A stretch of 39,686 nucleotides of DNA. It comes from a virus. The stretch is taken from IMG/VR virus record IMGVR_UViG_3300028597_000039, positions 1 to 39,686 of that record; one strand, given 5' to 3'. Shown here one piece after another: positions 1,852-17,602 of the stretch; positions within the stretch are counted from its first letter, which is position 1, and each line of letters begins with the position of its first letter. Both the position numbers and the translations under genes were made by a program. The notes under the pieces were generated by a model. The model was not told where the DNA came from, did not search any database, and was given only the letters and a program-made list of their open reading frames with translations.

Positions 1852-1925
1852 CCGAACATCCTCAATTTCGCCATCACACACAGCAGCGCAATCGCAGCCG
1901 CTGACCAGAACAAAGACTTACCCAT
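1848..1925 (-). CDS. Tiny membrane peptide, 25 aa
   Basis: ATG 1925 opens a 25-codon frame whose core FWSAAAIALLCVMA is hydrophobic with Lys3 before it and KLR after it, consistent with a single membrane-spanning helix. It overlaps the upstream stop by 8 nt and the downstream start by 4 nt, the same coupling seen across the operon. Short length makes this a moderate call. Confidence 0.45.
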   Translation of the reverse strand: MGKSLFWSAAAIALLCVMAKLRMFG

Positions 1926-2064
1926 GGTGAACCTCGGCGTGCCAGATGCCGTCTATACGCATTGGAGAGCGATTCCACGGGATGACTTGTCCAAGCTCAA
2001 ACCCCATCGCATAAAGCGCATCAGCGATACCGGCAAAGCTGCTGGCGATGATTGGGATGTTCAT
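1918..2064 (-). CDS. Hypothetical early protein, 48 aa
   Basis: ATG 2064 overlaps the stop of the 119-aa gene as ATGA and has GGGAG about 8 nt upstream. The product starts MNIPIIASSFAGIADALYAM and ends in WHAEVHHG; a Ser-Ala-rich helix is followed by a short strand region. No family recognised. The tight coupling on both sides supports it as a real gene. Confidence 0.5.
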   Translation of the reverse strand: MNIPIIASSFAGIADALYAMGFELGQVIPWNRSPMRIDGIWHAEVHHG

Positions 2065-2420
2065 TTCAGCGGCTCCCACAGGGACTTCAGGTATTCATAG
2101 CGTGGTTCAAGGTAGGCCAAGATCAGCGGAACATCTTCCTCGGTGATGACCTTGATTTCAGATGCAACAAAGCGGCCTTTACGTTGTTGCATATGGAAGA
2201 ATTCTGCATAAAAGCCTTCTGGCGCCTCGCCTTCTTCATAGCCGTCCTTGTCGTGCTCCTTGATGTCGAAGCGGAAAAGAAGATTGTAATCAAGATCGGC
2301 ATCACCCATCTCATCGAGAAATTCCTTGAATGTCGCGTACGAGAAAACGCACTCATTGGAGTAGTAGTTCCCGAGGTTGCAGTAGTACGCATGCTTCACA
2401 GCAAGATCTTTCAGGTTCAT
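2061..2420 (-). CDS. Acidic hypothetical protein, 119 aa
   Basis: The product is strongly acidic and aromatic (stretches such as FLDEMGDADLDYN and DKDGYEEGEAPEG). Acidic early phage proteins of this size are sometimes nucleic-acid mimics or inhibitors of host enzymes, but nothing here proves that. AAGGGG upstream of ATG 2420 serves as ribosome site. It follows a 31-aa membrane peptide with 1 nt between them. Confidence 0.7.
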   Translation of the reverse strand: MNLKDLAVKHAYYCNLGNYYSNECVFSYATFKEFLDEMGDADLDYNLLFRFDIKEHDKDGYEEGEAPEGFYAEFFHMQQRKGRFVASEIKVITEEDVPLILAYLEPRYEYLKSLWEPLK

Positions 2421-2421
2421 T

Positions 2422-2517
2422 TCAAATTACCCCTTCAACGTAGAGAGCGATGACCGCCGCCGTGACGTGCGCGGCGATCAGCAGGTGGGCGGTTAGGTTA
2501 AGCGTTAACCGGAGCAT
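2422..2517 (-). CDS. Tiny membrane peptide, 31 aa
   Basis: The 31-residue frame from ATG 2517 reads MLRLTLNLTAHLLIAAHVTA and continues hydrophobic to a stop at 2422, a probable single transmembrane helix. It overlaps the upstream 101-aa gene by 20 nt. The ribosome site is weak, so initiation would depend on coupling. Similar short peptides occur in Pseudomonas phages. Confidence 0.45.
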   Translation of the reverse strand: MLRLTLNLTAHLLIAAHVTAAVIALYVEGVI

Positions 2518-2803
2518 CGTGGCCGATCGCTTTGAGCTTGCTCAGGCGGTCCAGCAGGATGTTGACGCGGACTTGACTCTCTGCACGCTCTGACTGAATC
2601 GCGTCTTCGATCGCCTGAACCTGAAGCGGAGTGGTATCGATTTCTGGAACATCGATCTCCTGCTCAATCTTTCCGAGAAGAACATAGTCAGACGGTCGAT
2701 TACCGATTGACTTGGACATGTCGAAGTCATTCACGGAGACGCGGCCCCGACTGAATTCGCCGATATGTTTGCAGATGTACAGCGTGAAAGTTTGCACAGC
2801 CAT
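2498..2803 (-). CDS. Hypothetical early protein, 101 aa
   Basis: ATG 2803 is chosen because GAGGAAAGACCA precedes it, a leader motif shared with several other genes in this phage. Residues 1-50 are mixed strand/helix (FTLYICKHIGEFSRGRVSVN); residues 60-95 form a charged helix (QAIEDAIQSERAESQVRVNI). Function not recognised. It is followed immediately by overlapping small genes. Confidence 0.65.
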   Translation of the reverse strand: MAVQTFTLYICKHIGEFSRGRVSVNDFDMSKSIGNRPSDYVLLGKIEQEIDVPEIDTTPLQVQAIEDAIQSERAESQVRVNILLDRLSKLKAIGHDAPVNA

Positions 2804-2817
2804 TGGTCTTTCCTCGT

Positions 2818-2958
2818 TTATCGGAACTGAATCGGGCAATACGCCCCGTGGTCGCCAAGCATGTAGTACTGCTCGATTACAAAGTGTGGTTCGACGAAGC
2901 GCACATAACCTGCCGACATGTCGACCGTGGTGAGTCCTTTCATCAGTCGGCGGTTCAT
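2818..2958 (-). CDS. Hypothetical early protein, 46 aa
   Basis: ATG 2958 overlaps the preceding 21-aa frame's stop (ATGA) and has the GGACGAAGACCA leader. The product (start MNRRLMKGLTTVDMSAGYVR, end GAYCPIQFR) has no recognised family. It ends 14 nt before the next gene start. Confidence 0.5.
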   Translation of the reverse strand: MNRRLMKGLTTVDMSAGYVRFVEPHFVIEQYYMLGDHGAYCPIQFR

Positions 2959-3020
2959 TGGTCTTCGTCCTGTTGCTCGATGCCAAGAATCCAGTCGATA
3001 AACGCTAGTAGGTAAATCAT
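2955..3020 (-). CDS. Possible 21-aa membrane peptide
   Basis: ATG 3020 opens MIYLLAFIDWILGIEQQDED and stops with ATGA overlap onto the next gene. GAGG lies upstream. The hydrophobic N-terminal half and acidic end resemble a membrane-anchored micro-peptide; it may equally be only a coupling leader for the following gene. Confidence 0.3.
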   Translation of the reverse strand: MIYLLAFIDWILGIEQQDEDQ

Positions 3021-3040
3021 GGGCTTGGCCTCAGGTTGGT

Positions 3041-3232
3041 TTACTGCTCTGTTCGAATCTCAGACCTTGGCGTCCAGCCCGTAGGCATCTTCACCAAGCA
3101 TCCGACCCCCATTGCGTAGCGCGTTGTCCTGTCGGTCTGATAGCCGAACCATGCGCAACCGGTCCAGTTACTCGCTGCCGAGAGCGCAAGAGCGCTCACG
3201 ACCGCGATGCCGATCCAGACCTTAAGCTTCAA
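3041..3232 (-). CDS. Small membrane or secreted protein, 63 aa
   Basis: Residues 1-22 (MKLKVWIGIAVVSALALSAA) form a basic start plus hydrophobic helix typical of a signal peptide or N-terminal anchor. The remainder has two cysteines (TGCAWFG and VGCLVKM) that could pair if exported. ATG 3232 lies inside the end of the TerB-like gene (11 nt overlap). Similar proteins with a GVGCLVKMP-type motif occur in Pseudomonas phages, without assigned function. Confidence 0.6.
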   Translation of the reverse strand: MKLKVWIGIAVVSALALSAASNWTGCAWFGYQTDRTTRYAMGVGCLVKMPTGWTPRSEIRTEQ

Positions 3233-3659
3233 GACCGAAGTCTTTGACGCGCAGGCCGAGCTGGTTGCCGATTTCCACCAGCACTTTCAGTTCGTCCGGG
3301 CTGATGTTGCCGTCGCCTTCTGCCACGGTGAGCATGTTGACGAAGACTTCTTCGGCGTCGAGTGGGTTGTTCTTGATGTCGGCGATCTCACGCATGATGT
3401 TCATGCGGCCGAGACGGAAGCCGGCCTGAAGCTGCTCAGTGAACTGGTTCACGGTTGCGGTGATTTCAGGGCCGAAGTGCTCCAGTGCCTTGTTGGCGCG
3501 GATCTGGATATCGATCTGGGCCGCTTCGTTCTTGCTGATCTCGCCGTCTGCCGCAGCTACCAGCAGGCAGCCACCGACGATGGCTTGCATCAGATCACGA
3601 TTTTCCAGCTTCTTGACTGCACGCTTAGCGGTGAAAAGCTTTTTGCCGAAACCGAACAT
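3222..3659 (-). CDS. TerB-like protein, first gene of leftward operon
   Basis: The 145-aa product begins MFGFGKKLFTAKRAVKKLEN and carries two acidic TerB-like repeats, AAADGEISKNEAAQ (about residues 36-49) and TVAEGDGNISPDELKVL (about 110-126), the D/E-G-x-I-S-x-x-E signature of the tellurite-resistance TerB fold. In bacteria TerB domains are tied to membrane-associated stress and phage-defence complexes; the role of phage-borne copies is unknown. ATG 3659 is preferred over longer frames because AAGGAA lies 8 nt upstream and the predicted leftward promoter lies further upstream. Being first in the operon, it should be among the earliest proteins made. Confidence 0.75.
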   Translation of the reverse strand: MFGFGKKLFTAKRAVKKLENRDLMQAIVGGCLLVAAADGEISKNEAAQIDIQIRANKALEHFGPEITATVNQFTEQLQAGFRLGRMNIMREIADIKNNPLDAEEVFVNMLTVAEGDGNISPDELKVLVEIGNQLGLRVKDFGLEA

Positions 3660-3711
3660 ATTTGTATTCCTTATGGTCTGTGGTTGGCCGAGTCGTTGTG
3701 ACTTGGTGAGA

Positions 3712-3743
3712 CGAACTATAGGTTCGCTCCCGCAGATCGTCAA
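3712..3743 (-). promoter_or_regulatory. Leftward early promoter with operator-like palindrome
   Basis: Read leftward, -35 TTGACG (3743-3738) and -10 TATAGT (3720-3715) are separated by exactly 17 bp, close to the sigma70 consensus. The -10 lies inside a short palindrome CGAAC-N5-GTTCG (3712-3716 and 3722-3726), a plausible operator for the adjacent Cro-like protein. It would drive the TerB-like gene and the whole leftward arm. Confidence 0.75.
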
Positions 3744-3787
3744 GCAGATTATTTCTGTTTTTCTCGGATAAAATTACTAGCAAGGAC

Positions 3788-3816
3788 TTGATATGGATTC
3801 CGCTAGCGCCTACAGT
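3788..3816 (+). promoter_or_regulatory. Rightward early promoter
   Basis: TTGATA (3788-3793), 17 bp spacer, TACAGT (3811-3816). Start of transcription is expected near 3823, about 24 nt before the Cro-like ATG. An inverted repeat AGTTG/CAACT (3814-3818, 3825-3829) overlaps the -10 and start site and could be an operator. It faces away from the leftward promoter, with 44 AT-rich bases between the two -35 boxes. Confidence 0.7.
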
Positions 3817-3846
3817 TGCTCCCACAACTTGGCATTAGGAGTAACC

Positions 3847-4047
3847 ATGAACATCAAGAAAAGCATCCGCGTAGCACTGGCTCAGAAAGAGATGACGCAG
3901 GAAGGCCTAGCAAAGCTTGTAGGAATGACGGCATCGAACATGAGCCTGCTGCTCAATCGTGAATCGATCCCAACCTCCCGCCTGTCTCAGATCGCAACCG
4001 CCCTGGATATGAAGGTCGTTGATCTGCTGAAGCTCGGGGAGGACTGA
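3847..4047 (+). CDS. Cro-like helix-turn-helix repressor, 66 aa
   Basis: The short protein is an XRE-type DNA-binding domain: MTQEGLAKLVGMTASNMSLL (about residues 16-35) forms the helix-turn-helix and SRLSQIATALDMKVVDLL completes the five-helix bundle. At 66 aa there is no oligomerisation or autocleavage domain, so it resembles Cro rather than CI. ATG 3847 has AGGAG six bases upstream; a longer frame from 3793 would begin inside the promoter. It sits directly downstream of the divergent promoters and probably represses one or both. No partner repressor gene is visible in the window. Confidence 0.85.
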   Translation: MNIKKSIRVALAQKEMTQEGLAKLVGMTASNMSLLLNRESIPTSRLSQIATALDMKVVDLLKLGED

Positions 4048-4049
4048 TC

Positions 4050-4199
4050 ATGCTCGCCAAATATCGCGGTATGTCAGATAGAGAGCGCTGGATCAGATAC
4101 CACCAGATCTGCGCCGAATGGGTTGAACAGCATCAGCCTTTCGATGAGGTCGAGTTCCATAAGTTTGTTCGCGGGCTGACCAAGGATATGGGGCTCTGA
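4050..4199 (+). CDS. Hypothetical protein, 49 aa
   Basis: ATG 4050 follows the Cro-like stop by 2 nt with GGGGAGGA upstream. The product starts MLAKYRGMSDRERWIRYHQI and ends RGLTKDMGL; it is helical and charged. Its stop is followed by one base and then the ATG of the replication gene. No family recognised; its packing suggests a real small gene of the replication operon. Confidence 0.55.
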   Translation: MLAKYRGMSDRERWIRYHQICAEWVEQHQPFDEVEFHKFVRGLTKDMGL

Positions 4200-4200
4200 T

Positions 4201-5004
4201 ATGGCCAAGCCTGACGTGTGGATGCCGCTGTATATCGGCGACTACCTGTCGGACACCATGCACCTGACCACGGAGCAGCACGGCGCGTATCTGCTGCTGA
4301 TCATGGCGTACTGGAAAAACGGCGGGGCTTTGCCAGCAAGTGATGCCCAACTGGCTGCGATCTGCAGAATGCCAGTTGATGCTTGGAGCAATGCTCGGGC
4401 AGTGCTTGAGAATTTCTTCGACACAACACAGGAGGGCAAGTGGACAAGCAAGCGAGTTGAGAAGGAAATGCAGGCTGCAGGTCAGAAGAAGGCTCAGGCC
4501 GTACAGAAAGCGGCTAACGCGGCAGCGGCACGATGGAACAAGATAAGTGTCGATGCTCCAAGCATTCCTCAAGCAATGCCTGAGTATATGCTTGAGGATT
4601 GCCCTTCACCTTCACCTTCACCTATTGAAGATCAAGATCAAAAACACTTGTCGCCTCCGGCTCCGTCTGTGCCAAAACGGGAAAGGAAAGAACCTGCGTT
4701 TGAAAGGATTCTTGAGATCTACAAAGAAGTTTGCGGAGGTGTATTCAAAGGGGCTCATGACATAACCGAAGCCCGAAGAAAGAACATCACAAAATGCTGG
4801 GCAAGATCAGTCAATGGCAAGCTGGTTTTCCAGAGCGGTCAATTTTGGGCGGACTACTTCACTTGGTGTCTTCGCGATCCCCATTGGCGCGGAGAAACAG
4901 GGAAGTGGAAAGCCAGCCTCGAGTTTGTGACCAGGCCAGATTCTGTTGACCGGATAATTGACGAGATGAAGCTAGAGGGAGTTTTTGCTAATGAGCCAGC
5001 GTGA
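4201..5004 (+). CDS. DUF1376 replication protein, probable helicase loader
   Basis: The N-terminus (PDVWMPLYIGDYLSDTMHLT, then EQHGAYLLLIMAYW) is the diagnostic start of the DUF1376 domain (about residues 1-85), found in phage replication initiator or YdaU-like proteins. A low-complexity linker with PSPSPSP follows (about 130-155), then a C-terminal domain (170-260, including WADYFTWCLRDPHWRGETGKW) typical of proteins that sit beside a DnaB-type helicase. It overlaps the helicase start by 14 nt. The likely role is origin recognition and/or loading of the helicase encoded next; which of these is not shown by sequence. Any origin within the gene was not identified. Confidence 0.75.
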   Translation: MAKPDVWMPLYIGDYLSDTMHLTTEQHGAYLLLIMAYWKNGGALPASDAQLAAICRMPVDAWSNARAVLENFFDTTQEGKWTSKRVEKEMQAAGQKKAQAVQKAANAAAARWNKISVDAPSIPQAMPEYMLEDCPSPSPSPIEDQDQKHLSPPAPSVPKRERKEPAFERILEIYKEVCGGVFKGAHDITEARRKNITKCWARSVNGKLVFQSGQFWADYFTWCLRDPHWRGETGKWKASLEFVTRPDSVDRIIDEMKLEGVFANEPA

Positions 5005-6367
5005 CCTTGTATCAACCGAGGCGGAACACGGGGTGCTTGGCGCCCTGATGATCCGGCCTGACCTGTGTGAAGAAGTCGGCGCGTTCTTGAGCGCGTCCGA
5101 TTTCAGTGATAACGACACTGCCATGATGTACACGCTGATCCTATCTACTCACTCGAAAGGGATTAGCCCTGATCCGATCACCCTGTCAGAAGTTTTGGAG
5201 ATCATGCCAAGCGGTGATCAGACGATAATCATGGCTGCGACTATCAGCCGGAATATCCCAAGCGCGGCGAATGCCATCCCATACGCCAAGATCGTGGTTG
5301 AGAGGTCGGTTGCACGGCGCCTGTACATGGCTGGCCAGAGAATCATGGAGTTGGCCTGCAGCAAAGGATCGCTGCCAGCTCAGGTAGCCGAGGCGCAGCA
5401 ATCCCTATTCGATCTATCTGTTAACGAGGATGTGCCGGACGTTCGGCATTATCGTGACATGCTGGAAGGCGTTATCAACGAGATGGATGACCGGCTTAAT
5501 GGTCGTCTCGAGATAGGGCTGGACTTTGGCTTGGCCGACTTGGACGGCATCGTAAAGGGGCTTCGCCCGGGCAACCTTGTAATCATCGCGGGTAAGCCCG
5601 GAACCGGGAAAACCGTTCTCGGCACAAACCTTGCCGACCGAATCTCAAGCAAGGAAGGAAAGTCGTCGCTGATCTTCTCGCTCGAGATGCCCGGGGCGGA
5701 GCTGGTTAAGCGTGCCTTGGCTGCAGCAGGCGGAGTAGACAAGGGATGGATTGATACCGGCGGAAAGTCTACTGATGACCCATGGAATGCGTTCACGGTG
5801 GCGGTCGAGATGCTAAAGCACTCTGATGTTCGAATCTGCGACAAAGGTTCGCTGACATTCAGCAGGATCTGCAACATCGCCAGATTCCAGCATCGCGCCA
5901 AGCCGCTTCATTTGATCGTTGTCGACTATCTGACCCTGATCCGCGCAGACAAGGAAGATCGGTTCGGCACTCGCAGCCAAGAGATTGGATCGTTCACCCG
6001 GGGCTTCAAGGCGCTGGCAAAGGAGTTGAACATTCCGATTGTAGTGCTGGCTCAATTCAACCGGGCCTCCGAGTCTCGTGCTGCAGGTGAATCCAAGCCG
6101 CGCATGTCTGACCTGAGAGATTCTGGCGAGATCGAACAGGATGCCGACATTGTGATCCTTGGCAGTCGTGGTGATGACGAGCGCGGGCGTAGCGGGATTA
6201 CCACTTGGGATGTGGCAAAGGTGCGTCATGCCAGCCCGGGATCTTGTGTCCTGCAGTTCCAAGGGAAATACCAGCGATTCGTCTCTGCAGCTCCTGCAGA
6301 CATGATTGCCTACCAAGAAAGCCAGTCCGCGCCGAAGGCTAAGAAATACACACCGGGATTTGACTAA
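4991..6367 (+). CDS. DnaB-like replicative helicase
   Basis: The 458-aa protein has a DnaB N-terminal domain (about 1-105, starting with STEAEHGVLGALM) and a RecA-like helicase domain with Walker A GKPGTGKT at residues 201-208, the motif FSLEMPGAEL, the Walker B strand LIVVDYLTLI, and the H4-type block LAQFNRASESRA followed by LRDSGEIEQDADIV. These are the standard DnaB motifs in order, and length matches the family. It unwinds DNA 5' to 3' as a hexamer at the phage fork. ATG 4991 is preferred over TTG 4985; GAGGGAG lies upstream and the start overlaps the DUF1376 gene end. No DNA polymerase gene is visible, so host polymerase is probably used. Confidence 0.93.
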   Translation: MSQRDLVSTEAEHGVLGALMIRPDLCEEVGAFLSASDFSDNDTAMMYTLILSTHSKGISPDPITLSEVLEIMPSGDQTIIMAATISRNIPSAANAIPYAKIVVERSVARRLYMAGQRIMELACSKGSLPAQVAEAQQSLFDLSVNEDVPDVRHYRDMLEGVINEMDDRLNGRLEIGLDFGLADLDGIVKGLRPGNLVIIAGKPGTGKTVLGTNLADRISSKEGKSSLIFSLEMPGAELVKRALAAAGGVDKGWIDTGGKSTDDPWNAFTVAVEMLKHSDVRICDKGSLTFSRICNIARFQHRAKPLHLIVVDYLTLIRADKEDRFGTRSQEIGSFTRGFKALAKELNIPIVVLAQFNRASESRAAGESKPRMSDLRDSGEIEQDADIVILGSRGDDERGRSGITTWDVAKVRHASPGSCVLQFQGKYQRFVSAAPADMIAYQESQSAPKAKKYTPGFD

Positions 6368-9575: not shown

Positions 9576-9749
9576 ATCGGTGTAACGCTTAGGTATTGAA
9601 ACAGCGGCAACGTACAGCACCCGGAACAGGTCACGCCACTAGCCATGGCTAAAGGACAAAGAAGAAGGGTGGCACGGAGTTTCTGCAAATTCGCTCGGAT
9701 GGCACCCGGACTGAAAATGCTAGAGCCGCCCATAAGCGTTACAACCGAT
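9576..9749 (+). ncRNA. Candidate structured RNA domain with 16/17-bp long-range stem
   Basis: No convincing gene lies between 9509 and 9987. Within it, ATCGGTGTAACGCTTA (9576-9591) pairs with TAAGCGTTACAACCGAT (9733-9749) with a single bulged base. Properly nested inside are GCGGC/GCCGC (9604-9608, 9725-9729), GCCAC/GTGGC (9635-9639, 9669-9673) and the palindrome TAGCCATGGCTA (9640-9651). GCACCCGGA occurs twice (9617-9625, 9702-9710). A separate hairpin GGCG/CGCC lies at 9547-9563. Nested complementarity over 170 nt in an otherwise gene-dense phage suggests a folded RNA. Known identity not recognised. Confidence 0.5.
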
Positions 9750-9759
9750 GCAGATGAAT

Positions 9760-9873
9760 GCGCAGGCTGATGCGCAGCATAGAAGCGAGGGGAGAAACCG
9801 TGCAAGCAGACCCCTAATGCCGCACGAAGTCGGAGATCAGCGCCGACCATCAGCATCAACGAACACCAACGCC
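9760..9873 (+). ncRNA. Conserved RNA element, copy A
   Basis: In order: hairpin GCGCA-GGCTGA-TGCGC (9760-9775); a possible H-type pseudoknot from GGGG/CCCC (9789-9792, 9811-9814) interleaved with CGTGC/GCACG (9799-9803, 9822-9826); hairpin GTCGG-AGATCAGCG-CCGAC (9829-9847); and a tail AACACCAACGCC (9862-9873). The two hairpins and tail recur at 16105-16228 with compensatory changes. It lies about 46 nt upstream of the intrinsic terminator, so it may form the 3' portion of a terminated RNA. No Rfam family is claimed. Confidence 0.55.
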
Positions 9874-9919
9874 AAAACCGATAAGCCTCTCAACGATGCT
9901 CAAATCTTCGGTGCAGTAC

Positions 9920-9951
9920 AAAAGCCCTTTCCTAGTGATGGGGCTTTTTTT
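9920..9951 (+). terminator. Rho-independent terminator of rightward early operon
   Basis: Stem AAAAGCCC (9920-9927) and GGGCTTTT (9941-9948) with a 13-nt loop, followed by a T-run to 9951. It separates the early operon and the noncoding stretch from the late genes; late transcription must read through it or start downstream. Confidence 0.85.
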
Positions 9952-9987
9952 ATGCCAGAATGAAACATCACTAACGAGGAAAGACCA

Positions 9988-10104
9988 ATGGCCACATACC
10001 TTTTCGTTCTTGCGATGTGCGCAGCCGCTGCTGGGCAACCTGTAGCCGCATGCGTTACCTCGCTGGTTGCGATATATCTTTACACTCGCCCAAAAACAAA
10101 CTGA
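9988..10104 (+). CDS. Small membrane peptide, 38 aa
   Basis: Preceded by GAGGAAAGACCA, the same leader as the 101-aa leftward gene; 20 nt around the two starts are identical. The product MATYLFVLAMCAAAAGQPVA and the following 18 residues are hydrophobic with a TRPKTN tail, so one membrane helix or hairpin is expected. First gene after the terminator. Confidence 0.55.
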   Translation: MATYLFVLAMCAAAAGQPVAACVTSLVAIYLYTRPKTN

Positions 10105-10113
10105 GGATCCACC

Positions 10114-10221
10114 ATGGCCGCCACAAAGAAGAAGCCAGCATCCAAGAAGAATGAGCCGAAGAAGGCCGGATTCTTTCCTAAGGTGAAGTCGACCAAGAAG
10201 AATGGTCTCGGAAGCTACTGA
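10114..10221 (+). CDS. Lysine-rich small basic protein, 35 aa
   Basis: About one residue in three is lysine (MAATKKKPASKKNEPKKAGF and so on), with no hydrophobic core, consistent with a disordered nucleic-acid or membrane-binding peptide. ATG 10114 is 9 nt after the previous stop with GGATCC upstream as a weak ribosome site, and its stop overlaps the next ATG. Function unknown. Confidence 0.55.
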   Translation: MAATKKKPASKKNEPKKAGFFPKVKSTKKNGLGSY

Positions 10222-10595
10222 TGACCATCGAACTCGGCTTGTGCCTGATCTTCATGATCGCCGCCCTCCCGGTGTCGAAGAGCGTGGCCGCGCACTATGC
10301 CTTGTTCGCCATGGTCAACTTCATGATGCTGGGCGCCGGTACTGCTGATACATCCCTGCTCGCCATGATGTTCGCCACGCTGCTTGTGGGGGACATCCTC
10401 CTGATCCTGGCAGGTGGGCGCATGATCCTTCTGGTCAGCGCCGCCGCCTCAATCGCCCTCTGCATCGAATCAATCGCTAACATGGATTGGCTGCTTAGCC
10501 GAGTCACCTACCTGTCAGCCGCCGTCAACACGGCCATCGCCGCAAGTTTGGCTAAGGAGTTCTCTCTATGGATGCGTGGAAGGTATGGGCGCTGA
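10221..10595 (+). CDS. Multi-pass membrane protein, 124 aa
   Basis: About four hydrophobic segments: IELGLCLIFMIAALPV, YALFAMVNFMMLGAG, SLLAMMFATLLVGDILLILAG and MILLVSAAASIALCIESIA, with a short amphipathic C-terminus (FSLWMRGRYGR). It sits upstream of two overlapping membrane/coiled-coil genes and the terminase. It could be a second holin or a superinfection-exclusion protein; neither can be decided from sequence. Confidence 0.65.
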   Translation: MTIELGLCLIFMIAALPVSKSVAAHYALFAMVNFMMLGAGTADTSLLAMMFATLLVGDILLILAGGRMILLVSAAASIALCIESIANMDWLLSRVTYLSAAVNTAIAASLAKEFSLWMRGRYGR

Positions 10596-10747
10596 TACTA
10601 ATCGTTGCATTCATCCTGCTAGTGTCCTTGCACATCAGGGATGGTTCAAAAATCAAGAGGTTTCAGAATGAGCGAGTCGACGCATATCCTAGAAGAACTA
10701 CGGTCGCTGAGAGTTGCGCACGTCGACCTGATGACGAGGATGTCTGA
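10568..10747 (+). CDS. Single-pass membrane protein, 59 aa, overlapping next gene
   Basis: ATG 10568 lies inside the end of the previous gene. A single hydrophobic helix (VWALILIVAFILLVSL, residues 6-21) is followed by a basic then acidic tail. Its last 80 nt overlap the next gene in a different frame. This architecture recalls overlapping spanin-type or small holin-partner pairs but no lipobox is present. The length of the overlap makes either frame's expression uncertain. Confidence 0.5.
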   Translation: MDAWKVWALILIVAFILLVSLHIRDGSKIKRFQNERVDAYPRRTTVAESCARRPDDEDV

Positions 10748-10982
10748 CGTGTGCGGAGAGGTAAGGACGCTTGTGTCTGAGCTACGTCATACCCAGACCA
10801 GCTTCGACTCCATGAGCAACCGGGTGGCCGAGGTAGATCGCCAGATCCGCACCATCCAGCTTGAGAACGCCACCAACAAGCCCATACTCGACATCGCAAA
10901 CTCCATGTACCGCAGCCAGTGGATGACCATCATCGGCGCTATCGGCGCAGTGATCGGGTCCAACTGGACGAAGTTGTTCTGA
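10668..10982 (+). CDS. Coiled-coil protein with C-terminal membrane anchor (XhlA-like), 104 aa
   Basis: ATG 10668 is preceded by AAGAGG. Residues 5-75 are heptad-rich (RTLVSELRHTQTSFDSMSNR), followed by a hydrophobic tail WMTIIGAIGAVIGSNW near the C-terminus. A soluble coiled coil with a tail anchor is the layout of XhlA-family proteins, which act with holins in Bacillus phages. Here the position next to the terminase, not the lysis cassette, makes a lysis role only tentative. Confidence 0.55.
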   Translation: MSESTHILEELRSLRVAHVDLMTRMSDVCGEVRTLVSELRHTQTSFDSMSNRVAEVDRQIRTIQLENATNKPILDIANSMYRSQWMTIIGAIGAVIGSNWTKLF

Positions 10983-11518
10983 TGAGCACTCCAAAGCAGC
11001 CAGACTGGGAAACCATCGAATCCGCATACCGGGTAGGGTCTCTGTCTGTCCGCGCCATTGCTGAGCAGAACGACATTACTGATGGGGCCATACGCAAGCG
11101 CGCCAAGAAAGAAGGCTGGGCCCGTGATCTAACAGCAAAGGTCAAACAGGCGACTAGCGAGAAGCTGGTACGCGCCCCGGTACGCACAGACGGTACGCAC
11201 AGCAAGATGCGTACTGATGATGAGATTGTTGAGGAAGCGTCTGATGCAGCGGCATCAGTAGTCATATCTCACAGGATTGGGTTAGCAAGATGGCGATCGA
11301 TCGCGGACAAGCTCTGTGATGCGCTGACCGATCTTGATGTAGTGGAGGGGAACATCGGCGACTTCTCGCGCGCATTGAACGCCGGGGTTGATGCACAACT
11401 CAAGGTGATCAAGGGTGAGCGTCAGTCCTACAACCTTGACGACGACCAATCGCCTGATGGGCCAGCCACAATCATCACCCGGGTAGAGCGAGTAATCATT
11501 GATGCTCCAAAGCACTGA
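10982..11518 (+). CDS. terS: Terminase small subunit
   Basis: Residues 14-45 contain a terminase-small-type helix-turn-helix (LSVRAIAEQNDITDGAIRKR then AKKEGW), used to recognise the packaging start site. A central helical region (about 85-150) would mediate ring assembly, and a C-terminal tail (ATIITRVERVIID) would contact the large subunit. Start ATG 10982 overlaps the previous stop by one base. Located directly upstream of the large subunit. By analogy with P22 it would start headful packaging, but no pac site was identified. Confidence 0.8.
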   Translation: MSTPKQPDWETIESAYRVGSLSVRAIAEQNDITDGAIRKRAKKEGWARDLTAKVKQATSEKLVRAPVRTDGTHSKMRTDDEIVEEASDAAASVVISHRIGLARWRSIADKLCDALTDLDVVEGNIGDFSRALNAGVDAQLKVIKGERQSYNLDDDQSPDGPATIITRVERVIIDAPKH

Positions 11519-12755
11519 TACAGGCGCGACTCTCCAGATCAATACTCCGCGCTGGGCTGTGCCGGTTGTAAGCGGTGCTGCTCGTTACAAGGGCGCACAC
11601 GGCGGGCGTGGATCGGGCAAGTCCCATCTGTTCGGCGAACACCTGATTGAACTCTGCTCCATCCAGAAGATCGACGCGGTATGCGTGCGTGAGATCCAGA
11701 AGTCTCTCAACCAGTCCGTCAAGAAGCTGCTCGAGAACAAGATCGTGGATCTCGGCGTCCAGCACCTGTTCGAAGTCCAGCGCGACCAGATCCTGTCAGC
11801 CAGTGGTGGGCGGATAATCTTCCAAGGCATGCAGAACCACACCGCCGAGTCGATCAAGTCCCTAGAGGGCTATGACATCGCATGGGTGGAAGAGGCGCAG
11901 ACGCTGAGTCAGCACAGTCTTGACCTGTTGCGCCCGACAATCCGTAAGCCTGGAAGCGAGCTGTGGTTCACTTGGAACCCGCGTAACGCCACTGACCCTG
12001 TGGATGCCCTGCTTCGAAGCGACGACCCGCCACCAAACGCGATCATTATCCCGGTGAACTATGAGGACAACCCATGGTTTCCTGATGTCCTGCGCGACGA
12101 GATGGAGTACGACAAGAAGCGCGACCCGGAGAAGTTCCAGCACATCTGGCGCGGGGCATACCTGAAGAACAGCGAGGCCCGGGTATTCAAGAACTGGAAG
12201 GTTGAAGAGTTCGAAGCGCCTTCTGATGCCGTGCACAGGCAGGGGGCTGACTGGGGCTTCGCAACAGACCCGACAACACTGATCCGTTGCCATATCATCG
12301 GGCGCACGCTCTACATCGACCATGAGGCCTACAGGGTCGGATGCGAGATCACTGATACGCCTGCGTTGTTCATGACTGTGCCTGATTCGGAGAAGTGGCC
12401 AATCACCGCCGACAACGCGCGGCCCGAGACCATCAGCCATATGCGCAAGAACGGGTTCCCCAAGATCATGCCCGCGGTCAAGGGTGCAAAGTCAGTGGAA
12501 GAAGGCGTGGCGTGGCTTCAGTCGTTCGATATCGTCGTGCACCCGCGCTGCATCCACACCATCGACGAACTGACCCACTACAGCTACAAGATCGACAAGC
12601 TCACCAGCATTGTGCTGCCTGAGCTTGGGGACAAGGACAACCATGTAATCGACGCATTGCGTTATGCTTGCGAGGGTGCTAGGCGTGCGGCGAATGTTGC
12701 CAAGCCTATTGATGCCATGCCAAATCCAACCGCCAGCCACTGGAACAGGAAATAG
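11502..12755 (+). CDS. terL: Terminase large subunit
   Basis: The 417-aa protein has an N-terminal ATPase with Walker A GGRGSGKS (residues 34-41) and Walker B YDIAWVEEA (124-132, acidic pair 130-131), plus the WFTWNPRN coupling motif. The C-terminal RNase H-like nuclease contributes Asp250 (GADWGFATDPT), Asp304 (TADNARPET) and Asp384 (DNHVIDALRY). This is the PBSX-like/Terminase_3 type of motor that fills the procapsid and cuts DNA. ATG 11502 is used rather than TTG 11499; it overlaps the small-subunit gene by 17 nt. Confidence 0.93.
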   Translation: MLQSTDTGATLQINTPRWAVPVVSGAARYKGAHGGRGSGKSHLFGEHLIELCSIQKIDAVCVREIQKSLNQSVKKLLENKIVDLGVQHLFEVQRDQILSASGGRIIFQGMQNHTAESIKSLEGYDIAWVEEAQTLSQHSLDLLRPTIRKPGSELWFTWNPRNATDPVDALLRSDDPPPNAIIIPVNYEDNPWFPDVLRDEMEYDKKRDPEKFQHIWRGAYLKNSEARVFKNWKVEEFEAPSDAVHRQGADWGFATDPTTLIRCHIIGRTLYIDHEAYRVGCEITDTPALFMTVPDSEKWPITADNARPETISHMRKNGFPKIMPAVKGAKSVEEGVAWLQSFDIVVHPRCIHTIDELTHYSYKIDKLTSIVLPELGDKDNHVIDALRYACEGARRAANVAKPIDAMPNPTASHWNRK

Positions 12756-12757
12756 TA

Positions 12758-14836
12758 ATGTCAATCACGAAAGAGCAACGGCTGGCGAATATCCACCAGG
12801 AAGCAATGGCCGAGTTCGACAACATTCAGTCGGCGGTGCGGGACGAGCGCTTGCAGGCATTGCAAGACCGCCGCTTCTATTCGATTGCCGGGGCTCAGTG
12901 GGAAGGCCCGCTGGGTGATCAGTTCGAGAACCGCCCGAAGTTCGAGGTGAACAAGATCCACCTGGCGGTAATCCGGATCATCTCCGAGTACCGGAACAAC
13001 CGAATCACCGTTGACTTCGTGAGCAAGGATGGCAGCGAGAACGACAAGCTGGCCAGCACCTGCGACGGGCTGTATCGGGCGGATGAACAGGCAAGTACCG
13101 CCGATGAGGCCTACGACAACGCCTTCGAAGAGGCTGTCGGTGGTGGGTTCGGTGCTTGGCGTCTGCGTGCTGAGTACGAGGACGACGAAGATCCAGAGGA
13201 CGAACGGCAGCGGATCTGCATCGAGCCAATCTTTGACGCCGATAGCTGCGTGTTCTTCGACCTGAACGCCAAGCGCCAGGATAAGGCAGACGCCCGGACC
13301 TGCTTCGTCCTGACTGCGATGTCGCCTAGCGCCTACAAGGATGAATGGGGCGATGACCCGGCATCGTGGCCAAAGATCGTCCATCAAACCGAGTTCGACT
13401 GGTGCACGCCTGACGTGGTGTTCATCGCTGAGTATTACAAAGTAGAGGATAAGAAGGAGAAGGCGCAGATCTGGCGCGACCTCGACGGCGAAGAGAAGGT
13501 ATATCGGCAGTCTGACTTCGACGAAGACGAAGAGCTGCTGGATATGCTGACTGCCGTGGGCAGCAAGTTGGTACGCGAGAAGCCAATCAAGGTCCGCCGC
13601 GTGCGCAAGTACATCATGTCTGGCGGGAAGGTGCTGGACGATTGCGGCTATATCGCCGGGAAGTGCATCCCAATCGTACCGATGTACGGCAAGCGCTGGT
13701 TTGTGGACAACGTAGAGCGCTGCATGGGGCATGTGAGGTTAGCCAAGGACGCTCAACGCCTGAAGAACATGCAACTGTCCAAGCTGGGCGAGATCAGCGC
13801 GCTCGGCTCGGTCGAGAAGCCTATCTTCGATCCTGAGCAGATGGCCGGCCACACGTTGATGTGGGAGCAGGACAACATCAAGAACTACCCGTTCCTGTTG
13901 GCCAACTCCATCACTGACGCCAATGGCCAGAAGATGCCCGCCGGGCCAATCGGCTACACCAAGGCCCCCGAGATCCCGCCAGCACTGGCAGCGCTCCTAC
14001 AGATCACCGAGACAGACATCCAAGACCTGCTTGGCAATCCGCAGGCGGGCGAGCAGATCCGCTCCAACATCTCTGAGAAGGCCGTAGAGCTGGCGCAGAA
14101 CAGTCTAGGGATGCAGACATTCATTTACCTGAGCAACATGGCCAAGGCTATGAAGCGCTCTGGCGAGATCTGGCTGTCCATGGCCAAGGATGTGTTGGTC
14201 GAGGAAGGCCGCAAGATGAAGACCGTTTCGCCTCAGGGTGATATCGGCAGCGTTGAGCTGATGAAGCCAGTCATGGGCGAGAGCGGCAAGGAGATGGAGA
14301 ACGATCTGTCTCAGGCCAAGTTCGATGTCGCAGTGGAAGTAGGCCCATCGTCAAACAGCAAGAAGGCTGCGACCATCCGACAGATCATCGAGATGATGAA
14401 GATCGCGACTGATCCTGAAACGCTTCAGGTTCTCGGCGCCATGGCGATGATGAACATGGAAGGAGAAGGGGTTGAGGATGCCGCGTCGTTCTTCCGCAAG
14501 AAGCTGGTGGGCATGGGCGTGATCGAGCCGACCGAGGAAGAAGCCGCCGAACTCCAGGCTCAAGCAGCGAATGCGCAGCCCGACCCGAATACCTTATACT
14601 TGCAGGCAGCGGCGGAAGAGGCTTCAGCTAAGGCAGTCAAGGCGAGGGCCGACACTATCAACACCATTGCTGGCGCCAAGAAGACCGAAGTCGAGACGCT
14701 GAAGATCGCGCAAGAGATCGATGCCAGCCAGCAAGACCAAGCATTCGCCCTAATCGACAAGTTCGAACAGGGCATGCAGCCGCAACAATCAGATGTAACC
14801 GTAGTCGCGGTAGATCCAAACGCGCCGCGACCATAA
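12758..14836 (+). CDS. P22-like portal protein
   Basis: 692 aa, close to P22 gp1 (725 aa). Typical features are the N-terminal helix EQRLANIHQEAMAEFDNIQS, the RRFYSIAGAQWEGP and NRITVDF segments, acidic insertions (ESDEDDED-like at about 130 and 245), the stem and wing region around residues 300-450, and a long C-terminal helical barrel-like segment (about 590-680) rich in Ala/Glu/Gln. It forms the dodecameric DNA gate at one capsid vertex, binding terminase and later the gp4-like protein. AGGAAA precedes ATG 12758. Confidence 0.92.
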   Translation: MSITKEQRLANIHQEAMAEFDNIQSAVRDERLQALQDRRFYSIAGAQWEGPLGDQFENRPKFEVNKIHLAVIRIISEYRNNRITVDFVSKDGSENDKLASTCDGLYRADEQASTADEAYDNAFEEAVGGGFGAWRLRAEYEDDEDPEDERQRICIEPIFDADSCVFFDLNAKRQDKADARTCFVLTAMSPSAYKDEWGDDPASWPKIVHQTEFDWCTPDVVFIAEYYKVEDKKEKAQIWRDLDGEEKVYRQSDFDEDEELLDMLTAVGSKLVREKPIKVRRVRKYIMSGGKVLDDCGYIAGKCIPIVPMYGKRWFVDNVERCMGHVRLAKDAQRLKNMQLSKLGEISALGSVEKPIFDPEQMAGHTLMWEQDNIKNYPFLLANSITDANGQKMPAGPIGYTKAPEIPPALAALLQITETDIQDLLGNPQAGEQIRSNISEKAVELAQNSLGMQTFIYLSNMAKAMKRSGEIWLSMAKDVLVEEGRKMKTVSPQGDIGSVELMKPVMGESGKEMENDLSQAKFDVAVEVGPSSNSKKAATIRQIIEMMKIATDPETLQVLGAMAMMNMEGEGVEDAASFFRKKLVGMGVIEPTEEEAAELQAQAANAQPDPNTLYLQAAAEEASAKAVKARADTINTIAGAKKTEVETLKIAQEIDASQQDQAFALIDKFEQGMQPQQSDVTVVAVDPNAPRP

Positions 14837-14847
14837 AGGTGGATAAC

Positions 14848-15147
14848 ATGAAGGTTGTCGAGTTCAAGCAGAGAGATGATCCCCATGCATCAGGTGAGGC
14901 AATATGCACTCACTGCAAACATGAGTGGATCGCTGTGGCGCCGATTGGTGATGTCAACCTTGAATGCCCTTCGTGTTCATCGCACCGAGGCGTATTCAAA
15001 TATCCTTTCGGTGCGCCGGAAGGGTCTGAATGCTTTCAGTGTCATTGCGGATCTCAGGATTTCTTTATCTATCGGCAAGTTGGCCGCGCCAGTGGCGCTA
15101 CTTACTGCCGGGGATGTGGTTCTGAAGCGACTGGATGGTTTGAATAA
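14848..15147 (+). CDS. Zinc-ribbon protein in the head gene cluster, 99 aa
   Basis: Four CxxC-type pairs (ICTHCK, ECPSCS, CFQCHCG, YCRGCG) suggest two zinc ribbons. The start at ATG 14848 is preferred over GTG 14839 because AAAGGTGG lies upstream. A zinc-ribbon gene between portal and scaffold is not part of the P22 core; its role in this position is unknown. It could be a non-structural protein carried in the late operon. Confidence 0.65.
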   Translation: MKVVEFKQRDDPHASGEAICTHCKHEWIAVAPIGDVNLECPSCSSHRGVFKYPFGAPEGSECFQCHCGSQDFFIYRQVGRASGATYCRGCGSEATGWFE

Positions 15148-15192
15148 TTGGTTCCCGCCCCGCCATTGAGTGGGCGAGCAATGGAGTTTCGA

Positions 15193-16059
15193 ATGTCTGA
15201 CCAACTGCATGATGACCAAGTAGCAGAGACCGAGCAGGAAGAAGAGCTGCGCGAGGAGGAGACCACCGAATCCGAAGAGGAGGAATCCTCCGAGGAAGAA
15301 GAGGATGACGGCGTTATCGTAACCATCGGCGACGAGAAGCCACCGGTCGAGGACGAAGAAGAGAAGATCGCGCCTAAGTGGGTGAAGGATCTTCGCAAGC
15401 AGACCAAGGAGCAGGCCAAGCGCATTCGTGAGCTGGAGCAGGAGGCGGCGGCTAAGGCTGCGCCGGCTTCGAAGGTTCCTGAGCTGGGTCCAAAGCCAAC
15501 CCTTGAAGACTGTGACTGGGATGCCGAGGACTTCGAAACCAAGCTGACCGCTTGGCACGAACGCAAGCGCCAGGTGGAGCAGGAAGCCGCCAAGGCCAAT
15601 GAGCAGGCCGAGAACCAGAAGAAGGAATGGCAAGGCCGTCTCGACACCTACGCAAAGGCCAAGACTGATCTTAAGGTGCGCGACTTCGACGACGCCGAAA
15701 GCACTGTGCTCAGCACGCTCAGCGTCACCCAGCAAGGCATCATCGTTCAGGGCGCCGACAACTCTGCACTGGTCGTCTACGCTCTTGGCAAGAATCCGGC
15801 AAAGGCTAAAGAGCTGGCCGGCATCACTGACGCGGTTAAATTCGCCTTCGCCATCGCGAAACTGGAGACTCAATTGAAAGTACAAGCCAAGAGCAAGAGT
15901 GCACCACCACCAGAGGGCAAAGTGCGCAATGGTTCCGCCCCGATATCGGGCTCGGTCGACTCCAATCTGGAGCGCCTGCGTGCCGAAGCCGAGAAGACCG
16001 GTGATATGTCGAAGGTTGCAGCGTATAAGCGTGCGCAGCGCGAGAAGCAGAAAGCCTGA
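15193..16059 (+). CDS. Scaffolding protein
   Basis: 288 aa, comparable to P22 gp8 (303 aa). The N-terminal 60 residues are extremely acidic (EEESSEEEEDDG), the middle is helical coiled coil (about 90-150), and the C-terminus is basic (SKVAAYKRAQREKQKA), as expected for a coat-binding helix-turn-helix. It would assemble with the coat protein into a procapsid and leave on maturation. GGAG precedes ATG 15193; ATG 15181 is the alternative. Confidence 0.82.
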   Translation: MSDQLHDDQVAETEQEEELREEETTESEEEESSEEEEDDGVIVTIGDEKPPVEDEEEKIAPKWVKDLRKQTKEQAKRIRELEQEAAAKAAPASKVPELGPKPTLEDCDWDAEDFETKLTAWHERKRQVEQEAAKANEQAENQKKEWQGRLDTYAKAKTDLKVRDFDDAESTVLSTLSVTQQGIIVQGADNSALVVYALGKNPAKAKELAGITDAVKFAFAIAKLETQLKVQAKSKSAPPPEGKVRNGSAPISGSVDSNLERLRAEAEKTGDMSKVAAYKRAQREKQKA

Positions 16060-16060
16060 T

Positions 16061-16089
16061 TTGATAATTAGTCAATAGGGCCGTATGCT
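16061..16089 (+). promoter_or_regulatory. Putative coat-gene promoter
   Basis: TTGATA (16061-16066), 17-bp spacer, TATGCT (16084-16089). Transcription would begin near 16096, only about 9 nt before the RNA element at 16105. It lies right after the scaffold stop and 245 nt before the coat ATG, giving the coat gene its own leader. Confidence 0.55.
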
Positions 16090-16104
16090 TGATGTGGGTG
16101 AATT

Positions 16105-16228
16105 GCGCGGGTTGACGCGCTTCTAGCAGGGTATCTCGGAGCAACTCGTTCGAATCGAGTGTTAGCTGTCAAGGATCTAGCCGAGAACGCCGGGGATCAA
16201 CGCCGGCCACCCACGCAACACCAATGCC
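16105..16228 (+). ncRNA. Conserved RNA element, copy B, in coat-gene leader
   Basis: Hairpin GCGCG-GGTTGA-CGCGC (16105-16120); a closed domain TCTCGG/CCGAGA (bounded at about 16134-16186) holding a T-arm-like hairpin ACTCG-TTCGAAT-CGAGT (16144-16160); hairpin GCCGG-GGATCAACG-CCGGC (16189-16207); tail AACACCAATGCC (16217-16228). Both outer hairpins match copy A with paired substitutions. It occupies the 5' part of the coat leader, so a translational or stability role for the most abundant virion protein is plausible. Confidence 0.6.
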
Positions 16229-16333
16229 TCGCCAGCAAGCCGGCAGCGCAACATCAATGCCCCCATCCAGCTTTATGGATGAGTTAAGACGGCGCACTTC
16301 GCGCACTAATTTCTCATTCATAAGGTGACTTAC

Positions 16334-17602
16334 ATGTCTAGTTTCTCCAAAGAAGAGCGCGTAGCGTTCGAAGACATCCTCGAAGGTTTCGACGATCAAC
16401 TGGTGCTGTCGCGCAACGTGCGCAAGTACACCACCGACCAGCGCAGTATGGAGCGTTCGAATGACACCATCTGGCGTCCGATGCCGTACATCGCGAACAC
16501 CTTCGCCGGTGCTGACCAGACCGCCAACTTCCAGATCAACACCCAGTTGTCCGTGCCGTCCTCGATCAGCAACCGTCGTGTTGCCCCGTGGATCCTGACC
16601 GACCTGGAGCTGCGCGACCAATTGCAAGAAGGCCGCCTCGGCGAAGCTGCCAAGCAGAAGCTGGCCAGCGACATCAACGTCGCTCTGATGAATACCGCGT
16701 CCAGCCAAGGCACCTTGGTCGTCAAGCGCACCGTGGCCGCCTCGGGCTTCGATGACGTTGCCCAGTGCGATGCCATCTTCAACGAGCAGGGCGTTCCGTC
16801 CTACGACCGCTATCTGGCGCTGTCAACCCGTGATTACAACGGCATGGCGAACAACCTGCAGGTCGCTTCCCGTTCGTTCGGCAACGGCAAGTCCGACAAG
16901 GCATACGAAAACGCATTCGTCGGCCCGGTCGCATCGTTCAACACCTACAAGCTGGACTATGCCAATCGCTTGGCAGCAGCTGCTGGCGGTGGCGGTCTGA
17001 CCGTATCCACTCTGGTGGGCGCGGCCAACTACTGGGTTCCGAAGGCTACTTCGGTCGCAGTGACCGGCGAATCCAGCAACGTGGACAACCGCTTCCAGAC
17101 CATCACCGTTTCCAGCACCACCAACGTGGTCGCAGGTGATGCTTTCACCATTGCTGGCGTGAACGCTGTTCATCATATCACCAAGGGCGACACTGGTCAG
17201 CTCAAGACCTTCCGCGTGATCGCTGTGAACTCCGGCACCACCATGACCATCAGCCCGCCGATCATCTCGAACCAAGGCGGTTCGGATGCTGAAGCCCAGT
17301 ACCAGAACGTAACCGTGACCCCGTCGGCCACCGCCGCTATCGTGTTCCTGAACACCGTTGCCGCTAACATCAACTGCTTCTGGCATCGTGATGCGATGGA
17401 GATCCTGCCGGGCCGTATCGCGACCCCAGCGGATGCTGGCGTGGCAGTAATGCGCGGCACCACCGATCAGGGCCTTGAGCTGGTGATGCAGAAGTTCGCC
17501 GACATCAACACCGGCAACATCAAGTACCGGATGGATACCTTGTTCGGCACCGTGATGCTTCAGCCTGAGATGTCCGGGATCATGCTCTTCAGCCAGTCCT
17601 AA
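16334..17602 (+). CDS. Major capsid (coat) protein, P22 type
   Basis: 422 aa versus 430 for P22 gp5. The N-terminal helix (SSFSKEERVAFEDILEGFDD), the WRPMPYIANTFAGAD segment and the inserted Ig-like I-domain (about residues 230-320, with TITVSSTTNVVAGDAFTIAG) fit the P22 coat family. It forms the T=7 shell. ATG 16334 follows AAGGTG; GTG 16325 is less likely. The GC-ending codon bias is the strongest in the window, as expected for a highly expressed gene. Confidence 0.92.
   Translation: MSSFSKEERVAFEDILEGFDDQLVLSRNVRKYTTDQRSMERSNDTIWRPMPYIANTFAGADQTANFQINTQLSVPSSISNRRVAPWILTDLELRDQLQEGRLGEAAKQKLASDINVALMNTASSQGTLVVKRTVAASGFDDVAQCDAIFNEQGVPSYDRYLALSTRDYNGMANNLQVASRSFGNGKSDKAYENAFVGPVASFNTYKLDYANRLAAAAGGGGLTVSTLVGAANYWVPKATSVAVTGESSNVDNRFQTITVSSTTNVVAGDAFTIAGVNAVHHITKGDTGQLKTFRVIAVNSGTTMTISPPIISNQGGSDAEAQYQNVTVTPSATAAIVFLNTVAANINCFWHRDAMEILPGRIATPADAGVAVMRGTTDQGLELVMQKFADINTGNIKYRMDTLFGTVMLQPEMSGIMLFSQS

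Follow-up and report, generated by a model that had tools for sequence, protein, structure and literature searches.

A widespread phage RNA with a constant kissing-loop frame and a hypervariable middle, carried twice by a P22-like phage

What is the noncoding element that occurs twice, as copies A and B, in IMG/VR record IMGVR_UViG_3300028597_000039, and what might it do for the phages that carry it? The record, analysed over its full length of 39,686 bases (the window), is that of a P22-like phage, with P22 portal and coat families, NinG and a DnaB-like helicase, and its coat protein is 57-67% identical to those of the nearest annotated phages, including Pseudomonas phage PfAn1. From the letters of the window the original prediction had described two hairpins, their loops and tails and two compensated base pairs shared by the copies, and had read these as a mark of selected RNA structure. 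All of these parts are present in the window, and homologues and covariation bear out the selected structure; the closing helix P1, the complementarity between the two hairpin loops and an abiF RNA behind copy A had been missed. It is almost certain that copies A and B belong to a widespread, selected family of phage RNAs with the following fold (L-numbers are our labels for compared sequences).

9747-9857, + strand: copy A, whole element; P1 9747-9756/9848-9857, linker AAT, hairpin H1 9760-9775, variable middle 9776-9828, hairpin H2 9829-9847
9747-9756 and 9848-9857, + strand: copy A, P1 strands GATGCAGATG/CATCAGCATC; 10 positions with one A.A mismatch
9760-9775, + strand: copy A, H1, GCGCA-GGCTGA-TGCGC; loop 9766-9770 (GCTGA) kisses the H2 loop at 9837-9841 (TCAGC)
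9829-9847, + strand: copy A, H2, GTCGG-AGATCAGCG-CCGAC; abuts the P1 3' strand
16094-16214, + strand: copy B, whole element; P1 16094-16100/16208-16214, linker AATT, H1 16105-16120, variable middle 16121-16188, H2 16189-16207
16094-16100 and 16208-16214, + strand: copy B, P1 strands GTGGGTG/CACCCAC, 7 of 7 paired
16105-16120, + strand: copy B, H1, GCGCG-GGTTGA-CGCGC; loop 16111-16115 (GTTGA) kisses 16197-16201 (TCAAC)
16144-16160, + strand: copy B, T-arm-like hairpin inside the middle, ACTCG-TTCGAAT-CGAGT
16189-16207, + strand: copy B, H2, GCCGG-GGATCAACG-CCGGC

The fold comprises P1 (typically 7-10 bp), the linker AAT, H1 (5 bp with a 6-nt loop), the hypervariable middle, and H2 (5 bp with a 9-nt loop) standing directly on P1, and a kissing helix of 5 bp joins the loops of H1 and H2 (GCUGA/UCAGC in A, GUUGA/UCAAC in B). 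The loop letters that vary between the copies, C/T in one loop and A/G in the other, face each other in a single kissing pair that is thus compensated. The pairing that had been taken for a possible pseudoknot in copy A is this loop-loop helix and is real, and it is present in both copies. The T-arm-like hairpin noticed in the middle of copy B is a perfect T-arm. Local alignment of A with B gave a score of 28, whereas 500 shuffles scored 11 on average and 21 at most. Our covariance model R1 scores copy A at 76.5 bits (E 2.2e-15) and copy B at 63.0 bits (E 4.4e-12), values that are not independent because both copies were among the 21 sequences used to build the model.

All seven P1 pairs covary. 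Over 43 distinct sequences, whose rows were chosen partly for pairing, kissing pairs included, the other tests being fairer, 99.2% of cells are paired and double changes occur in 16 of 22 pairs against 6.9 in shuffles, with none of 500 shuffles as good; in slid-partner controls on the same sequences pairing falls to 27-45%. Among 102 hits selected by loop letters alone, P1 pairing is 85.7%, compared with 59.3% for shuffled partners, and 73 of the 102 are perfect over the seven pairs. A scan for the fold only, with the loops left free, recovered the same loops together with compensated new variants, and gave 5 hits in 1.6 Mb of shuffled sequence. In the R1 alignment all five kissing pairs are kept in about 101 of 106 members (one by a G.U pair); R1 has no kissing pairs and most of these members were fetched with fixed loops, so that the variants are what counts. 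Every full but altered H1 loop has matching changes in the H2 loop, except for one end pair lost in L128 (GGTGA/CCACC, 4 of 5 pairs). The other variants are copy B, L238, L149 (ACTGA/TCAGT) and L155 (GTCGA/TCGAC), of which L238 was fetched by a matched pattern; such a pattern played no part in finding the variant copies of L149, L155 and L128. A scan aimed at the C.A-mismatched kissing combination found no true element that has it, and yielded in L379 a further GTTGA/TCAAC member with a 153-nt middle. Imperfect pairs comprise 31 G.U against 5 A.C, and the molecule is therefore most simply RNA of this strand.

The search for homologues with a covariance model, as had been proposed, found members in about 100 viral contigs and in named phages. 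The R1 members, at 40-81 bits, include phages P1, P7, D3, PAJU2, HK629, HK633, AH02, PS-1, PAE2, Jeremy, Bas80, CU10EC and T751. A loop-based pattern matched at least 120 viral contigs, and, with partial matches counted, 143 phage records were matched by a copy-A query and 240 by a consensus query. Matches, partial ones again counted, occur in 1355 of 5426 complete E. coli genomes, about a quarter, and many phage-plasmid-like records also contain a match. Genomes searched whole hold one or two copies, and PAJU2 has one on each strand.

That no known family had been recognised in the letters agrees with Rfam 15, in which no family matches the element and only chance-level hits fall on it. At the element loci, P7 included, Rfam reports tRNA, STnc100 and IS1222_FSE only; neither the C4 antisense RNA of P1 and P7 nor any other Rfam family matches over its cut-off at the element, and the only Rfam hit inside any element is a tRNA remnant in L150. 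Megablast of the region against phages gave no match, and a description of the family was not found in the open-licence literature searched, although an earlier account elsewhere is possible. The family therefore appears to be undescribed so far.

Several known RNAs were considered and rejected. The RydB small RNA (sRNA) of E. coli (RF00118; K-12 rydB, L396:414-481) has a hairpin that differs little from H2 (GCCGGAGATAAGCGCCGG) and, upstream of it, a possible partner for the loop (CTTATC/GATAAG), but it is chromosomal and has no H1, no comparable P1 and no middle; RF00118 scores 13.7 bits against a cut-off of 50, R1 scores K-12 rydB at 13.1 bits (E 0.094), and the match spans 17-18 nt. Skipping-rope RNA (RF02924), a stem with a long variable loop, gave no hit in six element-carrying genomes, in a search for which no positive control worked. 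A self-cleaving ribozyme was suggested by the hammerhead-like CTGATG in H1; GAAA, the cleavage parts and copy B misfit by eye, and there was no Rfam ribozyme hit.

The closest structural comparison is with tRNA. The element shares with it a 7-bp closing stem, a short linker, two 5-bp arms of which the second abuts the closing stem, and a loop-loop elbow, comparable to the acceptor and T arms and to the contact of D loop with T loop; T-arms also occur in some middles and tRNA genes are among its neighbours. It differs from tRNA in having no anticodon arm, a second loop of 9 instead of 7 nt, Watson-Crick kissing and no conserved CCA. ARAGORN found no tRNA or tmRNA in the window, the Rfam tRNA model does not match copies A and B, and NCCA is not conserved. 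The tRNA topology is a resemblance and not a kinship. A tRNA lies within 500 nt of 21 of 109 elements, on the same strand in all 21, where about 9 would be expected at random (some of the contigs are near-duplicates). Gaps of only 5-7 nt separate element and tRNA in L137, L148 and L165, and in L182 the tRNA abuts the element.

The middle is where members differ. Its length in the set examined runs from a minimum of 31 nt up to 153 nt, and clustering of 91 distinct middles gives 75 clusters. Members with a near-identical upstream flank and P1 have differing middles (17 members in 14 clusters, 9 in 9, 6 in 5, 4 in 4 and 4 in 4), and the same middle is found under different P1s (L155, L169 and L369; L123 and L181; L020 and L175). 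A perfect tRNA T-arm is present in 5 of the 91 middles, copy B included, against 0.015 expected. In L150 (element L150:3946-4054) the middle is what is left of a tRNA: D-arm and T-arm are present, the anticodon arm is missing, and the score of 34.2 bits passes the cut-off of the Rfam tRNA model. Judged from these sequences, the middle behaves as an exchangeable cassette in a constant frame, and a constant frame with a swappable, fast-changing core is the expected signature of an arms race.

Copy A is followed directly by a second RNA, which belongs to a known family:

9858-9876, + strand: linker from copy A to the abiF RNA; contains AACACCAACGCC at 9862-9873
9877-9913, + strand: abiF RNA (Rfam RF03085), 47.4 bits against a cut-off of 37, full length 1-37; core AAGCCTCTCAACGATGCTCAAATC equals the Rfam consensus
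9920-9951, + strand: terminator-like hairpin and T run, AAAAGCCC...GGGCTTTTTTT (RNAfold); its 13-nt loop caused it to be missed by a simple terminator scan

The abiF RNA begins three bases past the tail of copy A, with the end of P1 19 nt before the motif, and the predicted hairpin at 9920-9951 would end a transcript of copy A and the abiF RNA. The noncoding RNA of AbiF systems is their antitoxin and acts in trans to neutralise AbiF, a HEPN toxin, as with RCd22 of C. difficile (PMC12373285), and the structure of AbiF/AbiFr and its relation to Cas13, of which AbiF is the presumed ancestor, have been reviewed (PMC12737573). The RNA of the window shares the core of the known RNA, which acts by direct binding, but it is not followed by an abiF gene and is preceded by a frame RNA; neither copy A nor copy B is itself an abiF RNA. 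A match to an Abi_2 gene (PF07751) was found nowhere in the record, and such a gene is present in 2 of 28 viral records bearing the abiF core. An AbiF-like protein, detected with a profile iterated from two proteins, lies within 1.5 kb of the core in 2 of 25 viral contigs as against 58 of 92 bacterial contigs among the matches listed, most of the bacterial set being Bacteroidales. A tRNA ends 12-105 nt, mostly 12-20 nt, 5' of the core in 8 of 27 viral loci and in none of 116 bacterial loci among the matches listed. Orphan abiF RNAs over the cut-off, with no Abi_2, were found in the T7-like phage T7-Ah, mycobacteriophage LittleE and cyanophage S-SZBM1, and a weaker match, also with no Abi_2, in Arthrobacter phage Mimi. 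An abiF RNA has already been noted in cyanophage S-CREM1, with no reading as antitoxin mimicry (PMC9964418).

Orphan abiF RNAs, often lying directly 3' of tRNAs, are thus typical of phages, and in the window and in L020 the frame element occupies the place of the tRNA. The natural interpretation by analogy is antitoxin mimicry like that of pseudo-ToxI of phage PhiTE (PMC3475682), a phage RNA with no toxin gene that can silence a host RNA-antitoxin suicide system and so provides a model for orphan abiF. ToxI differs in being a 36-nt pseudoknot repeat for ToxN, unrelated in sequence and fold. We consider an anti-AbiF role for the abiF part of the window somewhat probable. A divergent abiF RNA behind the AH02 element was also considered and is not supported by Rfam. 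In L018 and L022 the core and a degenerate abiF-like hairpin just upstream of it stand behind tRNA-Met, a two-motif phage array as in RCd22.

Linkers resembling that of copy A precede the abiF RNA in L006, L011, L013 and L025. The linker AACACCAA(C/T)GCC, or CAACCA(A/G)CGCC, recurs between RNA modules even where there is no frame element, at 9862-9873 and, after copy B, as listed here; it is perhaps a processing site or an exchange boundary.

16217-16228, + strand: tail after copy B, AACACCAATGCC
16250-16261, + strand: further copy of this sequence, AACATCAATGCC

The positions of the two copies had suggested that both serve one regulatory or processing function in the late switch. Among the coat-gene relatives searched, the element stands before the coat gene only in the window, L031 and L036, and the coat site of other close relatives has either no element or a different predicted fold; the copy-A site holds no element in L032, L035 and L036, the relatives with 10 kb upstream. 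Because both sites are patchy among relatives, the late-switch reading is unsupported for this phage group, and the element is mobile cargo rather than a single fixed switch.

The overall explanation that we favour, though tentatively, is that these are trans-acting decoy or antitoxin-like phage RNAs. The element would share a transcript with neighbouring genes or tRNA arrays, or be read from a promoter of its own as in copy B:

16061-16089, + strand: promoter-like TTGATA-N17-TATGCT upstream of copy B; the predicted start falls on the P1 5' strand

Trimming of the transcript would leave a stable RNA whose action is in trans and not on its own mRNA. The loop-loop pairing would bend the frame into a tRNA-like elbow with the variable domain at the position of the anticodon arm, so that the constant frame would provide stability and tRNA-like recognition and the exchangeable middle specificity. 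The likeliest job would be that of a ligand or decoy for host proteins that handle RNA, above all toxins that target RNA and anticodon nucleases. Together with the abiF RNA, copy A would form one short terminated unit, whose abiF part would, like RCd22, neutralise the AbiF (HEPN) toxin of a host. That the element acts in trans we regard as probable; a counter-defence role of the frame RNA itself, as decoy or antitoxin-like RNA, is possible but less than an even bet. Such a role would explain the hypervariability, the tRNA pieces, the company of tRNAs and abiF RNA, the missing partner gene (no protein family is constantly adjacent to the element, the commonest reaching 8 of 90) and the patchiness.

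Several observations weigh against this explanation. Nothing was found that ties the frame RNA itself to any host protein, and the link between frame RNA and abiF RNA is seen in two genomes only, the window and L020. The likeness to tRNA is one of topology only, since the sequence that follows P1 varies and contains no conserved NCCA. Most of the roughly 90 characterised copies have no promoter immediately upstream, and maturation from longer transcripts is assumed for this reason; a promoter-like sequence that sets the RNA start at P1 is found only in the coat-site copies B, L031 and L036. Finally, many copies lie in early-left or late operon leaders, which would also suit a cis-acting element.

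Such an element could be an antitermination or leader RNA that, while nascent, binds RNA polymerase and carries it through the terminators of early or late operons, its middle being filler. Antitermination by put RNA works via the zinc-binding domain of the RNA polymerase beta' subunit. The common sites agree with this, being leftward early-operon leaders (Erwinia phage 59, PAE2, PS-1) and stretches ahead of late or lysis genes (in the interval from Q or NinG to the lysis genes in PAJU2, HK629, HK633 and AH02), as do the terminators that follow 15 of 91 copies at a distance of no more than 110 nt, where about 1 is expected, the orientation of conserved neighbouring genes (59 co-directional, 10 opposed) and the PAJU2 copies on both strands. 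The HK022 put RNA (PMC9378689) is likewise a structured phage RNA in operon leaders, but it has about 70 nt in two stem-loops and no variable middle, and HK022 contains no H1 motif and no true member, its best R1 hit (20.5 bits, E 0.11) not being significant. Moreover, phages with an N or Q of their own carry the element, it also lies inside tRNA regions (P7, D3, Bas80, CU10EC, T751), and a filler should shrink or vanish, yet the middle keeps its minimum length across its 75 clusters. Antitermination, which we judge unlikely, explains the operon-leader positions and not the middle.

The downstream terminators and hypervariable middles fit a base-pairing regulatory sRNA, in which the frame would be a stabilising or chaperone-binding body and the middle a seed for host or phage mRNAs. 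Prophage sRNAs with a conserved frame and a changing seed are known, among them the Pas sRNAs of E. coli prophages (PMC13192938), whose setting is related; by a comparison of setting, not of sequences, there was no sign of kinship. Some middles, however, are folded tRNA pieces (T-arm, D-arm) and not open seeds, and one and the same frame serves in unrelated phages and hosts; this role too seems improbable.

A processing or stability module, in which trimming as at an upstream tRNA would set the 5' end of a cargo RNA (the abiF RNA after A, the coat mRNA after B), finds evidence at the abiF loci. There a true tRNA in 8 of the 27 viral cases holds the place that the element has in the window and L020, the 19 nt from P1 to the motif fall within the prevailing spacing of tRNA ends from the core, and the abutting tRNA of L182 is in keeping. 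Behind most copies, though, no cargo RNA is recognised, and the hypervariable middle is left unexplained, and we rate this alternative as quite unlikely. A folded single-stranded DNA, such as an attC-like recombination site that swaps middles between near-identical flanks, is very improbable given the excess of G.U pairs, which RNA tolerates, the co-direction with genes and tRNAs, and the fact that homologous recombination via the conserved H1 and H2 arms accounts for the swapping with no recombinase.

Other RNAs were observed around the element. The coat-gene leader that follows copy B at 16229-16336 (CGCCA..CGGCAG..CCATCC..GGATGAG..GCAC..GTGC..CTCAT) is found again ahead of the coat gene in L031, L032, L034-L037 and L040, and partly in L074 and L077; it gave no Rfam hit and is probably a second conserved, structured RNA. 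At the copy-B site, some 150-250 nt upstream of the coat gene, L032, L034 and L037 have other apparently structured RNAs, with a covarying closing helix in L034 and L037, as if RNA cargo were exchanged at this site. In Klebsiella phage T751 (L372) the 3.3 kb at 1894-5231 contain no annotated genes and hold the element and an STnc100 sRNA, then tRNA-Met; the stretch may contain more unnamed RNAs, and CU10EC (L371) has a comparable 2-kb gap.

Phages as well studied as P1, P7, D3, HK629, HK633 and PAJU2 thus carry a structured RNA that has no Rfam family, and the family is directly testable in model phages. The orphan abiF RNA leads to the concrete prediction that phages carry toxin-free antitoxin RNAs against AbiF. 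In the broadest and more doubtful reading, an RNA weapon platform would be common to gammaproteobacterial phages: a frame like that of tRNA, with exchangeable payloads each matched to a different host RNA-targeting defence, spread in their genomes beside tRNAs and orphan antitoxin RNAs. If true, this platform would be the RNA counterpart of anti-defence protein islands.

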